A stretch of DNA of 61,304 bases from Planctomycetota bacterium (GTDB taxonomy: Bacteria; Planctomycetota; Planctomycetia; Pirellulales; Pirellulaceae): positions 1-61,304 of the forward strand of contig JAPLNM010000028.1 of the NCBI GenBank assembly GCA_026692845.1. Reading direction: 5' to 3'. Under the pieces are notes generated by a model. It was not told where the DNA came from. It made no database searches and saw only the letters and a program-made list of their open reading frames with translations. A program made the translations under genes and the position numbers. Positions 31,040 to 41,669 of the stretch are shown piece by piece. How positions within the stretch are numbered: the first letter of the stretch is position 1; every line of letters begins with the position of its first letter.

Positions 31040-32425
31040 CTAGTAGCTACCTATCCCAAACGGCAACGAGTTCCTCCCCAAAAAGTTCGGAGCGTTCGAC
31101 GAGACTCCCAAAGGAGCAGTCGCGACACTCGGCGCGCCGTAGCTATACCCCGAGGTAGGCGGAGGAACCGCCCCAGGTGGATAACCCTTGTACGGATACC
31201 CGCCACTTGCCATCGATGCTTGGCCCCCAGTGGTCCCGAATAGTGTCGTTGGAAACAATGCTCCTTGCTGTGCATACCAAGCAGCAGCATAGGCATTGGG
31301 AGGATAACCCGCAGGAGGATAACCCGAAGGCGGATAACCCGAAGGCGGATAGCCGGCCGTTGGATATCCAGTAGGTGGATATCCCGTAGGAGGATAGCCC
31401 GTAGGAGGATATCCAGTAGGTGGATATCCCGTAGGAGGATAGCCCGTAGGAGGATAGCCATAGGGAGCCGTAGGCGCACCTGCGACGCTGTATCCTGGAT
31501 TCGGATAACCGCCCGGAGGCGCAGCCGAACCATAAACCGATGGCATCGTCGGCGGACCACTCGGCGGCGGAATCGGGGTCCCGGTCCCAGCATACATCGG
31601 AGGGTAGGCCGGTGCGGATGTCTGCGATACGATCGGAATGATCGGAGCCGTCGCCGATTGGCGTGCCGTATATTGTGGAACGGTCATCGGAGGTGGGGGA
31701 GCCAGCGTCACCGGTGCGTTCCAAGTTGTGTTCGAAGCGGTGTACCCATACACAGGGGAACCATACTTTGGTTGCGCAGGGTAATCGATCGCACGCGTGG
31801 GGTAACGGGCAGTCGTTCGATTGGCTTGCGCAAGCATCGCTGAATCTTGCACCAAATTGCTCGCTGCAACACCAGGCGTCGCGCTGGCGGACAAAGGACG
31901 GTCGACAAACTTTTGTCTCTGCTCGCTGGCATTGACCAAAACGGGGACCATCCGGCTGACTTCACGCTCCTCGTACTTCTGATAAGCGGTCATCTGAGTC
32001 GTCTGAGCGTTCCTGGGCTGATACTGTACGATCGGAACATACTCGACAATCTGTTGCGGCGCTGCAAACGGATTGGCGCTGGGGACCGATCGAGGGCGAA
32101 GTTGGTACGAGACCACCTGATCGTATTGCGTGGTCGTCGTCTGCTTGGGTTCCTGGACCCATACCGGAACCCATACCTTGTCCTTGACCTCGCGGTACTC
32201 GTACTTCGGTACTGTTACCGTTTCGGAAACCACATAGCGGCCCCAGGGTTGCCCGCTGTACATGTCCAGAAACGTCATGACCGGGGTGTTGTTCTGAAAC
32301 TGATCGACCGAAGCTGTAGGGGACTGGCCGATGGCAAGCGGGAGGATATCCACTACAATCGCACACATGACCAACCACGCGACCACCAATGAACACGAAT
32401 TCCCAGAATGGATCTTGGGAGTCAT
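31040..32425 (-). CDS. Secreted Pro/Tyr-rich repeat protein (YPPTG repeats)
   Basis: 461 residues. Signal peptide SLVVAWLVMCAIVVDILPLA ends near IGQSPTA. N-terminal half: conserved-looking YVVSETVTVPKYEYREVKDK and VWVPVWVQEPKQ, which resembles cell-surface proteins that recur in planctomycetes. C-terminal half: low complexity, with six tandem YPPTG units then variants (YPTAG, YPPSG, YPPAG, YPPNA), encoded by 15-bp DNA repeats (about 31290-31460). Tyr/Pro/Gly repeats suggest a surface or matrix protein, possibly adhesive or cross-linkable; that is inference. The ATG at 32425 overlaps the divergent Trm112-like gene by 59 bases. Confidence 0.85.
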   Translation of the reverse strand: MTPKIHSGNSCSLVVAWLVMCAIVVDILPLAIGQSPTASVDQFQNNTPVMTFLDMYSGQPWGRYVVSETVTVPKYEYREVKDKVWVPVWVQEPKQTTTTQYDQVVSYQLRPRSVPSANPFAAPQQIVEYVPIVQYQPRNAQTTQMTAYQKYEEREVSRMVPVLVNASEQRQKFVDRPLSASATPGVAASNLVQDSAMLAQANRTTARYPTRAIDYPAQPKYGSPVYGYTASNTTWNAPVTLAPPPPMTVPQYTARQSATAPIIPIVSQTSAPAYPPMYAGTGTPIPPPSGPPTMPSVYGSAAPPGGYPNPGYSVAGAPTAPYGYPPTGYPPTGYPPTGYPPTGYPPTGYPPTGYPTAGYPPSGYPPSGYPPAGYPPNAYAAAWYAQQGALFPTTLFGTTGGQASMASGGYPYKGYPPGAVPPPTSGYSYGAPSVATAPLGVSSNAPNFLGRNSLPFGIGSY

Positions 32426-38045: not shown

Positions 38046-40718
38046 CTAAGCGTCGGGATCGAAAAGCATCGGTTGGTATGCCTGATTTTTCAAGCCTGTA
38101 TCGCGGGCAAGCCCGTTTTGCTCGATCCAATGCCGGTAGACTCCACCTGCCATCGCCGCCCCGGACTCCAAGGCCCTCTCAATCCCATTGGGACGAACAA
38201 TCGAGCACGGGTTGCCCTCTTTAGAGACCCAATCGCCAGAGACCCAATCGCCACAGGCACCCAACAGCAACTGCGGGTCCCACAGATAAGGAATTTCGCC
38301 CCCGAGTCGATTGCCCGCCGATGCGGCTTGGCCGTACCGCCAACGGTGGGCTTGAACATGCACGACCTGCGGAACCGCACCGACGCCCAAGCCTGAAATC
38401 GCATCGATCAATCCGGAAATGACCGACTCAGGCTCGCTCTCAAGATGCTCGCCAGTCCATTTGCTCGTCGCCTGGATGCACCAAGCCTCCGGCCCCGAAG
38501 GCCCTTGAGATTTGACCGAGGTGCTAGCCGATTTGCTAGACTCGCGGCTGATCCATGCAAGACTCGGATGATCCTCCAAATGGATCGCATCGAAGGGTAT
38601 CTCCCAGCGTCTGGCAAACTCGATCATCAGGGTCCATATCGGCTCCATCGCGCGTGAACTTGCCACGTCCCTCCATTGGCAATTCCGATCGACCATGGCC
38701 GACACTTGCGGGGAGGGAACGGCCAGTACCACGCAGTCAAAGGGACCTGCTTGGAAACTCTTAACGCTGGTTTCGCCTTGGACATTCCCGTTAAGCATCC
38801 ACCCCGGATCGCTTCGATCGATCCGTTCGATCGTGGTGCGATAGCCGATCGCAAGCCCCTGCGCTAGGTGCTTACCGATCTGATTCATCCCGCCTTTACC
38901 CACCCACCACGGGGCGGTCCCCAAGGCACACGGCGCGACTGCACACGGCGCGACTGCACACGGCGCGTCCGAACCGACCTGCGGGCTGCCTTTCCAAACA
39001 CCCAACCTCGGCTCCCATCGAGCGATCACCGAATCTTGCTCCCAGGATTTTAAGAGTCCCTCCCAGCGTCCCGAGGCAATCTGAAAACAGGGCGCACCGT
39101 GGTCGATCCGTCCCCCGGAGTCCAACCGACGCGTCGCACCCCTACCTCCCGAACCGCGCGACTTCTCGAAGACCTCGACCTCAAAGCCGACATCCGCAAG
39201 CGATCTTGCGCAAAGGAGCCCAGAGATACCCGCTCCGACAATCGCCACCCTACAGGTGCGAGCCGAAACCCTACGACGCACGATCCGCTGGTATTTGTCA
39301 AAGTCCAATCGGTTCAAGTGTTCGGAGGTCGGTCTTGCGCGCACCGTGCCGAGCACCGGTTGCTCAGGATAAAAAGGCCGATCGAACTGTCCTAGGCACC
39401 AGAGGATTCCGCCATAGGAAGCCGGATCGCGACCATCGAGCGCATAGCGATGGTTCAAATCGATGATCCACCCAAGGGCCTGTTCGGGCGATTCGGTCCA
39501 GGACAAAAGGGCTTTGCCCCAAGTCATTCGCAGATTGTTGTGGAGCTCACCGTGGCGAAGCAAACTCTCCTGGCATGCGTTCCAGAGCGCATCGTCGGTT
39601 TTTCCACGAGCAAGCGTCTCCCAAGAGTACAGTTTCTCACGACGATCCTTCTGGTGCGCTCGCAACGTCTCGACGGCCCACGACCCAAGCGTGTCGATCG
39701 ATCGATAGTCGCTTCGATAGAAACAATATCCATAAGCGAGTTCTCGCCAGATCAGAAGCTCGTCGAGGTACTTCTCGGCCCTGCGCTCGTTGGCTTCGCG
39801 GGCCAATCGCATCGGAGAAACCATGCCATAGTGCAAATACGCCGACATGCGACTGGAGTACTCGGCACAAGGGTCATTGCGTTTCGCAGCGTACTTGGCT
39901 ATCCGATACTTCAAAAAATCGTTCCACCTCTCGTACCCGGCTCGACTCCCACCGCACGTGTCGGCAACCGGTGGGACCATCGGGTCGATGTCGCACTGCG
40001 ATACGATCTGCAAAGGCTCGATCTTCGAGCAGTCCAATGCCTCGAATGGCAACTGGCCATCGTATCGCTCCGGGATACTCTCAAGAGTAGGCCAAGGCCT
40101 CGAGAGCCGCTCCTTGTAGAGCTTGGCCGTCGCATCGCGAAAGGCAAACGCCCGATCAAACGGCCGGCCTACAAGCTGCATCGGAACGACGCAAGCGGTA
40201 TCGACGGCAAGAACCGTCAAGCCCTCCAAGTGCGTCAATCGCTTGAGCCATCGATCCGTGGGCTCCCCTGGGAAATCGTCGGTGATCAACAAATCGGTTT
40301 GCTGGGCCAGATGCAACAGACCTGGAGCGCCGTCGGTTCGCCTCTGGAGATGGAACGCATAGCGGAACCCTCGCTGGGAATACTCCTGCTGCAGATCCTT
40401 GGCCCCCTGGATCTGAAACACATGATGGCGATCCGAGGCATACCGGTACTCAGACGATAGGCCGTGATAGACCACCAAAGGCCGTTTGAGCGCACAGGCA
40501 AGCGTGCAGGCCACATCGAGCGCAGGATTCTCCTCAACCCGTTGGGCATGGTGCGTCCAATAGACCACCGGCATGCGGTCGAACGACGATGACGGCGATA
40601 GAGACGACGGCGATGGGCGTGAACGTCGCGACGCGGGCCTGGGGATTCCTCGGGTGCGTTCCTGCAGGTGAGCAGGTAGGAGCGAAATCAATTCTTCGGA
40701 TCGATAAGATCGATTCAT
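38046..40718 (-). CDS. Class II-like photolyase/cryptochrome fused to FAD/NAD(P)-binding oxidoreductase
   Basis: 890 residues from ATG 40718, overlapping the zinc-ribbon gene stop as ATGA. N-terminal domain (about 40-485): VVYWTHHAQRVEENPALDVA, LLIWRELAYGYCFYRSDYRS, then GELHNNLRMTWGKALLSWTE and LNHRYALDGRDPASYGGILW, diagnostic of class II-like photolyase FAD binding. C-terminal domain (about 490-880): dinucleotide motif VAIVGAGISGLLCARSLAD, then FEVEVFEKSRGSGGRGATRR and a C-terminal LLGACGDWVSGDWVS segment, resembling renalase/amine-oxidase-type flavoproteins. One uninterrupted frame joins them. In-frame 15-bp repeats occur (APCAVAPCAVAPCA; GDWVSGDWVS). Predicted soluble; DNA repair or light-driven redox role inferred. 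Confidence 0.9.
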   Translation of the reverse strand: MNRSYRSEELISLLPAHLQERTRGIPRPASRRSRPSPSSLSPSSSFDRMPVVYWTHHAQRVEENPALDVACTLACALKRPLVVYHGLSSEYRYASDRHHVFQIQGAKDLQQEYSQRGFRYAFHLQRRTDGAPGLLHLAQQTDLLITDDFPGEPTDRWLKRLTHLEGLTVLAVDTACVVPMQLVGRPFDRAFAFRDATAKLYKERLSRPWPTLESIPERYDGQLPFEALDCSKIEPLQIVSQCDIDPMVPPVADTCGGSRAGYERWNDFLKYRIAKYAAKRNDPCAEYSSRMSAYLHYGMVSPMRLAREANERRAEKYLDELLIWRELAYGYCFYRSDYRSIDTLGSWAVETLRAHQKDRREKLYSWETLARGKTDDALWNACQESLLRHGELHNNLRMTWGKALLSWTESPEQALGWIIDLNHRYALDGRDPASYGGILWCLGQFDRPFYPEQPVLGTVRARPTSEHLNRLDFDKYQRIVRRRVSARTCRVAIVGAGISGLLCARSLADVGFEVEVFEKSRGSGGRGATRRLDSGGRIDHGAPCFQIASGRWEGLLKSWEQDSVIARWEPRLGVWKGSPQVGSDAPCAVAPCAVAPCALGTAPWWVGKGGMNQIGKHLAQGLAIGYRTTIERIDRSDPGWMLNGNVQGETSVKSFQAGPFDCVVLAVPSPQVSAMVDRNCQWRDVASSRAMEPIWTLMIEFARRWEIPFDAIHLEDHPSLAWISRESSKSASTSVKSQGPSGPEAWCIQATSKWTGEHLESEPESVISGLIDAISGLGVGAVPQVVHVQAHRWRYGQAASAGNRLGGEIPYLWDPQLLLGACGDWVSGDWVSKEGNPCSIVRPNGIERALESGAAMAGGVYRHWIEQNGLARDTGLKNQAYQPMLFDPDA

Positions 40719-41416
40719 TCTGGTCTGTAAAGCCATCGACCACAACTCGAACAAGGGATGGGATGCCCCTGGCGCAGTTGGTCGACGACACGAGGAGGTA
40801 GGCTTGTATTGCAGCCGCCACAGGAGCGATCTTCGAGCGGAGCGAAGGCGTCCTCGGCGCTGGTTTTGACAAGAGGATGGTAGATCGCTGCAAAGTCAGC
40901 TGGCAATTGGCCTTCGGCTTGCTTGAGCTCCTCTTCGACCCTGACAAGCTCACCACGGAGCAAGACGATTCGATCCTGAAGTTTGACTTGAGCCTTGGCC
41001 GTGTCCTCTTCGACCGTTTTGAGTTCGCCTTCCAAACCCACCAATTGGCCTTGCAGGGTGTCGAGGCTTTCGAGGGCTTCAAAGATTTCATCCGACAGCA
41101 CGCTGTTGGCTTGGGTGTCGGCTGCGATCTGATCCTTGACCGCTTGGTACTCCCGATTGTTCGACGTCCCGTTGAGCTTCCCTTGCCACTCGTAGAGCTT
41201 GGCTTCGTATTGCCGCTGCTGGAGCTGCTTGCGGTCGGCATCCATGCGGTTTTTCTTGATTGTCTCTTTGCAAGCGGCCACCAAATCGCGGGCTTGCTGG
41301 GCACGATTCTGAGCCGCCTTGATTTGCTTGGGACCCCTTTCGATCTGCCCTCGAATATCTGCCACTTGGAGCAGGACCTCGTGAAGTCGACGGACGATCG
41401 CATCGGTAACTGGCAT
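40715..41416 (-). CDS. Coiled-coil zinc-ribbon protein (CT398/zf-RING_7-like)
   Basis: 233 residues from ATG 41416 (TTG at 41425 is an alternative). Long coiled coil (AIVRRLHEVLLQVADIRGQI through LRGELVRVEEELKQAEGQLP), then a C4 zinc ribbon: SCGGCNTSLPPRVVDQLRQG and PIPCSSCGRWLY (CxxC and CxxC). This layout matches the CT398/zf-RING_7 group, a presumed nucleic-acid-binding or scaffold family. Its stop overlaps the photolyase-fusion start by four bases (ATGA), so the two proteins are probably made together. Whether they interact is unknown. Confidence 0.88.
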   Translation of the reverse strand: MPVTDAIVRRLHEVLLQVADIRGQIERGPKQIKAAQNRAQQARDLVAACKETIKKNRMDADRKQLQQRQYEAKLYEWQGKLNGTSNNREYQAVKDQIAADTQANSVLSDEIFEALESLDTLQGQLVGLEGELKTVEEDTAKAQVKLQDRIVLLRGELVRVEEELKQAEGQLPADFAAIYHPLVKTSAEDAFAPLEDRSCGGCNTSLPPRVVDQLRQGHPIPCSSCGRWLYRPE

Positions 41417-41669
41417 AGCGGTCAAACTCTAGGGGTGCAGGTCTTGGACGGGCATTCAGATGGTTCTTTAGGCAATGTACCTACAAGCCACCGTGAAAAC
41501 CAGGGATATTGCCGATGCTCCAGCCAGGTTTTTTGCTATGATATTTCGAGCGTTTCATGATTCGAATCCGGAGAATTAGGCCCGGATGGAGAAACCGTCC
41601 ATGAAGGGAGTCCAAGGAATGGGCCGAGGAATGATGGTGCACGTTTTGGCGGAGCAAAAGAGGTTCGGT

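Follow-up and report, generated by a model that had tools for sequence, protein, structure and literature searches.

A class II photolyase fused to a renalase-like domain in Planctomycetota and other bacteria, a possible bifunctional photodamage-repair flavoprotein

The closest described relatives of the protein treated here are class II cyclobutane pyrimidine dimer (CPD) photolyases, such as those of Methanosarcina mazei (MmCPDII, PDB 4cdn and 2xry) and rice (3umv), and bacterial renalases (PDB 4zcc, 4zcd and 5krq; 3kkj from P. syringae). In a 61,304-nucleotide contig of a Planctomycetota bacterium (JAPLNM010000028.1, assembly GCA_026692845.1), the whole of which we call the window, both are joined in a single gene (38046..40718, minus strand) encoding an 890-residue protein in which, unlike in bacterial renalases, the renalase-like domain lies covalently behind a photolyase. 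The PhrSph98 group comprises bifunctional CPD/(6-4) photolyases sister to class II, for which the accessible part of the description mentions no fused domain; compared by published residue numbers, unaligned, it shares with the fusion an asparagine at 375 and the equivalents of E310, W314 and M388, whereas its Y389, D413 and A430 correspond to T, H and W in the fusion (PMC9649867). Gene sets regulated by light or singlet oxygen also combine a photolyase gene with genes for a short-chain dehydrogenase and a flavin oxidoreductase, which in the accessible sections of their reports are separate, unlike in the fusion (PMC9758184; PSPTO_1043/RpoE-ChrR regulon, PMC5507510). The initial annotation of this locus, made from its letters alone, knew of no characterised protein with this domain order, and the literature that we searched, judged by titles and abstract starts, yielded none either. 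We found no paper treating photolyase and renalase together, in a search whose coverage excluded most subscription papers and which is thus not proof of absence; no title or abstract start on photolyase fusions, extensions or planctomycetes described this protein; and the words fused, fusion and oxidoreductase are absent from a broad photolyase/cryptochrome survey (PMC7560933).

Minus-strand translation from the ATG at 40718 to the stop codon at 38046-38048 gives 890 residues and a single terminal stop, and frame 1 of the plus strand is interrupted by stops across the same interval. The gene is single-copy in the window genome. One open frame of this length was what the initial annotation had proposed, and the motifs that it quoted could be located, those of the photolyase at residues 390-409 and 421-437 and that of a second flavoprotein domain beginning near residue 490 (VAIVGAGISGLLCARSL) at residues 491-507. 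It was also right about the photolyase class and the domain order: the NCBIfam phr2 and PDB matches are class II and the second domain is C-terminal. The photolyase domain (39285..40577, minus strand, like all gene features below in the window) matches phr2 over residues 48-478 (E-value 2.9e-95, 320 bits). This score misses the curated cut-off of 550 bits, but so does that of the stand-alone 510-residue class II photolyase on contig C27 of the window genome (355 bits), and the cut-off is therefore strict for these proteins. The PDB sequence matches of residues 26-462 are also class II photolyases, and Pfam DNA_photolyase was found at residues 51-183. As to the two Pfam families suggested earlier for the protein, NAD_binding_8 was recovered and FAD_binding_7 was absent among the 13 families found up to an E-value of 1. 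The predicted fold is that of class II enzymes (PDB structural match over residues 10-481), with ~31% identity to MmCPDII across the match, from whose alignment the M. mazei numbering was transferred.

With residue roles taken from the accessible parts of PMC5885780 and PMC9649867, the Trp381-Trp360-Trp388 chain and the FAD (flavin adenine dinucleotide)-binding N403 of class II enzymes are present in the window protein as W400, W379, W407 and N422, and E301, W305, M379 and W421 are also shared. We counted residues in an alignment of 124 fused and 52 stand-alone rows with a nearly complete photolyase half; its rows, like those of the trees below, include near-copies. L012 (second domain cut by a contig end), L172 and L215 (second domain divergent) were labelled fused by hand, and L216 was kept as its own class. 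E301, W305, R378, M379, W381 and W421 are kept in 123 of the 124 fused rows, and W360, W388 and N403 in 122. The fusions differ from class II photolyases by a signature, N376 together with T380, found in 123 fused rows (L227 being the lone exception) and in none of the stand-alone ones. In the window it lies in residues 393-407 (HNNLRMTWGKALLSW, 39498..39542), together with the kept M379, W381 and W388. Immediately after the FAD-binding asparagine, in the motif LNHRY (residues 421-425, 39444..39458), D404 is replaced by histidine (H423), as in 114 fused rows and two stand-alone ones; since aspartate occurs in only 11 of the 52 stand-alone rows (and in nine fused ones), it is not strictly conserved among stand-alone homologues either. 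Position 345 is variable as well: this tyrosine of the photoreduction chain, described in the accessible part of PMC5885780 as almost strictly conserved across class II photolyases, is present in 51/52 stand-alone rows versus 40/124 fused rows, 17 other fused rows being gapped.

An interdomain stretch (residues 464-489, 39252..39329) leads to the renalase-like domain (residues 489-867, 38118..39254). This domain carries a GxGxxG FAD motif at residues 495-500 and NAD_binding_8 at 493-557, its PDB sequence matches (residues 488-827) are renalases, and its predicted fold is that of renalase. The structure prediction reached a predicted template modelling score (pTM) of 0.90 across the 890 residues, with the renalase-like domain mostly at high confidence. 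The oxidoreductase, initially described in general terms as FAD/NAD(P)-binding, can thus be narrowed to a renalase-like type. It is unlikely simply to reduce the photolyase with NADPH, because human renalase oxidises 1,2- and 1,6-NAD(P)H and, in the accessible part of PMC7660482, is reported to be inactive toward ordinary 1,4-NAD(P)H.

The window protein departs in several ways from typical renalases. The motif DHGAQYFT, invariant in the 15 stand-alone renalases compared, is replaced by DHGAPCFQ (residues 539-546, 39081..39104), by changes partly common to near relatives. Two 15-bp tandem repeats lie within the domain, one of 2.8 copies (38926..38967) in a low-confidence loop (APCAVAPCAVAPC, residues 585-597) and one of 2.1 copies (38223..38253) that duplicates the conserved GDW motif (GDWVSGDWVS, residues 823-832). 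In an alignment without incomplete renalase matches, the window keeps 49 of 67 core columns, compared with medians of 61 in 97 fused rows and 66 in the 15 stand-alone ones, from which these near-invariant columns were themselves chosen; two loci, L053 and L027, keep 66 each. Ratios of nonsynonymous to synonymous substitution (dN/dS; Nei-Gojobori, own script) against the three nearest relatives were 0.10-0.11 for the photolyase half and 0.21-0.25 for the renalase half, which indicates that the latter is constrained, less than the former. Residues G495, G497 and G500 of the FAD motif, G525, R526, G541, W793 and G823 are invariant across a 38-sequence alignment that includes the window.

Within the genus of the window, the gene is present, whole or truncated at contig ends, in 24 of the 26 other genomes (in G015 it is visible just up to residue 343), and a stand-alone photolyase and no fusion were seen in G003 and G011. 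In a sample of the phylum, 13 of 392 genomes besides that of the window showed matches across both halves. Samples outside Planctomycetota were each centred on a genome already known to carry the fusion and, with this carrier counted, contained it in 5 of 119 genomes of the order of Thiohalocapsa halophila, 10 of 140 of the phylum of a Myxococcales metagenome-assembled genome (MAG; the second half is a weak match in G604 and G641), 8 of 150 of the phylum of a Gemmatimonadetes MAG (G978 being partly masked) and 1 of 190 of the class of a Geminicoccaceae MAG, plus the divergent L227. A search with patterns derived from the query gave 171 loci, and all of the best 80 contain both domains in the fusion order, including isolates and complete chromosomes; two are split by frame breaks (L068 and L093), and contig ends interrupt several others. 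Isolates carrying the fusion are Thiohalocapsa halophila DSM 6210, Halochromatium glycolicum, Halochromatium roseum, Aporhodopirellula aestuarii and strain TBK1r, and these 80 loci also include records named Desulfosarcina and the like. The fusion is present in records from five phyla, the phylum names for the best 80 loci resting on record names, mostly of MAGs. Together, these loci and the window's genus provided 105 open frames with both halves (101 distinct, 88 complete), and of the 88 complete fusions 72 have a linker of exactly 25 residues and 84 one of 22-25.

In a tree of 150 photolyase domains, likewise limited to nearly complete photolyase halves, a branch of support 100 (stem 0.79) sets the 111 fused rows apart from the others, and when 27 further rows were included the 52 stand-alone photolyases still fell on one side (support 99, FastTree). 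The fused photolyases make up a separate clade of class II, marked by a signature of their own. Two stand-alone class II photolyases of the Gemmatimonadota sample, L237 and L238, score highest to the fusion among the stand-alone ones of that sample (40-41% identity) and are a candidate sister group of the fused photolyases. The coupling can be put to the test in natural lineages that have dropped either half. In L216 (1102-2847, plus strand; genome G603, Myxococcota sample), which nests inside the fused clade, the frame of a fused-type photolyase ends just past the photolyase half, and no renalase match was found in the downstream frames of at least 100 residues within 1.5 kb. Conversely, L227 (1450-3867, minus strand; G724, a 1.8 Mb genome of the alphaproteobacterial sample) keeps the renalase half (115 bits), whereas E301, W305, R378, M379, W381, N403 and W421 are all lost from its photolyase half in the alignment; its very long branch makes both its placement and its aligned residues less sure. 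In L211 and L215, the renalase half is weakened and weakly recognisable.

Some fusions are linked to other photolyase or repair genes. Among 116 fused loci, 17 have a PF04244 photolyase-related neighbour, 15 a DUF2256-DUF3253 gene, 14 a short-chain dehydrogenase and 8 an Fpg/Nei glycosylase, as against 2, 0, 2 and 0 of 34 stand-alone class II photolyase loci and 1, 0, 3 and 0 of 14 stand-alone renalase loci. The neighbour families were confirmed with Pfam for one example each, and the counts are not independent, since many of the 116 loci are related and they include near-copies and truncated loci; the majority have none of the four families within the DNA examined. Of the two PF04244 cases at stand-alone photolyases, one belongs to the stand-alone locus of the window genome itself. 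Some fusions adjoin a gene for a short-chain dehydrogenase or for a member of the amine-oxidase family, and in this respect resemble the light/singlet-oxygen gene sets. The DUF2256-DUF3253 gene, such as L104:7416-7805 (plus strand) and its relatives, occurs near fusions across several phyla. All 16 genomes checked contain PF00875 matches, and 14 contain at least two, by a model that fails to detect some class II enzymes, the C27 photolyase of the window genome being one. In the complete genome G389, the fusion is the sole PF00875 match and the sole class II photolyase match, and one PF04244 protein is also encoded.

We favour, with about an even chance of being right, the reading of the fusion as a bifunctional photodamage-repair flavoprotein in which repair enzymes for DNA and NAD(P)H are tethered. 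The N-terminal class II photolyase would split pyrimidine dimers in DNA by means of blue or UV-A light and its reduced flavin (FADH-). The C-terminal renalase would carry its own FAD and, in typical members, would oxidise the off-pathway 1,2- and 1,6-NAD(P)H, which are dehydrogenase inhibitors, back to NAD(P)+. Because it holds both enzymes, one gene would repair two components damaged together by light or photo-oxidation; we infer here that both halves are active, that NAD(P)H isomers are the substrate and why the two are tethered. The physiology in which bacterial renalases take part is little understood. That records from five phyla contain the fusion is direct evidence from evolution for a process common to renalase and photolyase, and it suggests that faulty NAD(P)H may arise through light damage. 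Several observations weigh against this dual-repair reading. NAD(P)H isomers would have to be made by light in cells, and the photochemical reduction described in the accessible part of PMC7660482 is non-specific and takes place outside them. As many as 99 of the 116 fused loci, many of them short, are without a PF04244 neighbour, and the fusion is rarely the sole photolyase, given the second PF00875 match in 14 of 16 genomes. The window protein itself differs at 18 of the 67 renalase core positions (including Q543P, Y544C and T546Q), which makes its own renalase activity doubtful. Finally, in a renalase tree of 112 rows (15 stand-alone) the fused domains do not form one clade but require 7 changes, mostly at weak forks, and the stand-alone renalase L177 groups beside the fused domain of Halochromatium roseum; either the renalase half was released or exchanged, or this tree is poorly resolved. 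As the photolyase halves fall on one side and the renalase halves do not, the photolyase lineage would most simply have fused once, possibly with later release or exchange of the renalase half.

The changes in the window protein bear on a different explanation, that in its lineage the photolyase alone still works, the C-terminal half having become a folded domain that stabilises the protein or binds a partner but is no longer an enzyme. The altered core positions, the two tandem repeats (one doubling the GDW motif), a dN/dS about twice that of the photolyase half, and a renalase domain that is faint in L211 and L215 and absent from L216 would all fit it. Yet this dN/dS is still well under 1, the FAD motif and the other five residues listed above are invariant in the 38 sequences, and the domain is modelled at mostly high confidence. 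We regard a non-enzymatic half as unlikely. For the copy in the window, a renalase half of reduced activity has to be taken seriously as an alternative; in the window's lineage this half may have changed its activity or lost part of it.

Two further possibilities would couple the flavins. The renalase flavin might take up hydride from NAD(P)H isomers and send electrons down the tryptophan chain to the FAD of the photolyase, which would thereby stay reduced (FADH-) in darkness or during oxidative stress. The fixed two-domain arrangement suggested by the pTM, the near-constant linker, the frequent loss of Tyr345 and the histidine typical of fusions beside the FAD asparagine would suit such an internal electron donor, but stand-alone class II photolyases work without a similar partner. 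Moreover, L216 has an intact fused-type photolyase without renalase and L227 a renalase beside a photolyase half without its key residues; since each half survives without a working partner, an obligate relay is disfavoured and electron supply by NAD(P)H isomers cannot be essential family-wide. We consider this donor role improbable. In a somewhat more doubtful version, a two-flavin redox machine, the renalase would hand hydride from damaged NAD(P)H to the photolyase flavin and not to oxygen, producing no peroxide; if true, one form of photodamage would pay for the repair of the other, and the fixed docking, the frequent loss of Tyr345 and the histidine at 404 would have evolved as adaptations to such a transfer. 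It is quite improbable that the fusion is a light-gated oxidoreductase or photoreceptor whose photolyase half acts as a light sensor governing the renalase half. Cryptochromes derive from photolyases, and the second PF00875 match in 14 of 16 genomes could leave the fusion free for signalling. However, sensory cryptochromes often lack the lesion-contacting residues, which the fusion retains, and the Pfam-named neighbour families comprise three of photolyase or repair function and none of signalling. An artefact, by frameshift or misassembly joining two genes, has a negligible chance: no point in its support was found, the frame is single and stop-free, and all of the best 80 loci, isolates and complete chromosomes included, have both domains in the same order. 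Neither the frameshift nor the absence from related genomes that would have undermined the initial annotation was thus encountered.

Upstream of the fusion lies a coiled-coil zinc-ribbon gene (40715..41425, minus strand), whose product contains Zn_ribbon_9 and matches a CT398-like coiled coil under the Pfam cut-off of that family. Its stop codon overlaps the start of the fusion as ATGA; a translational coupling, as proposed initially, may result from this arrangement. Homologues of this gene flank the fusion in 10 loci, all from the window's genus or near copies of such genomes, and the association is a local one. Elsewhere in the window, the product of a minus-strand gene (31040-32425) contains a long array of YPPTG repeats that are almost identical to one another.
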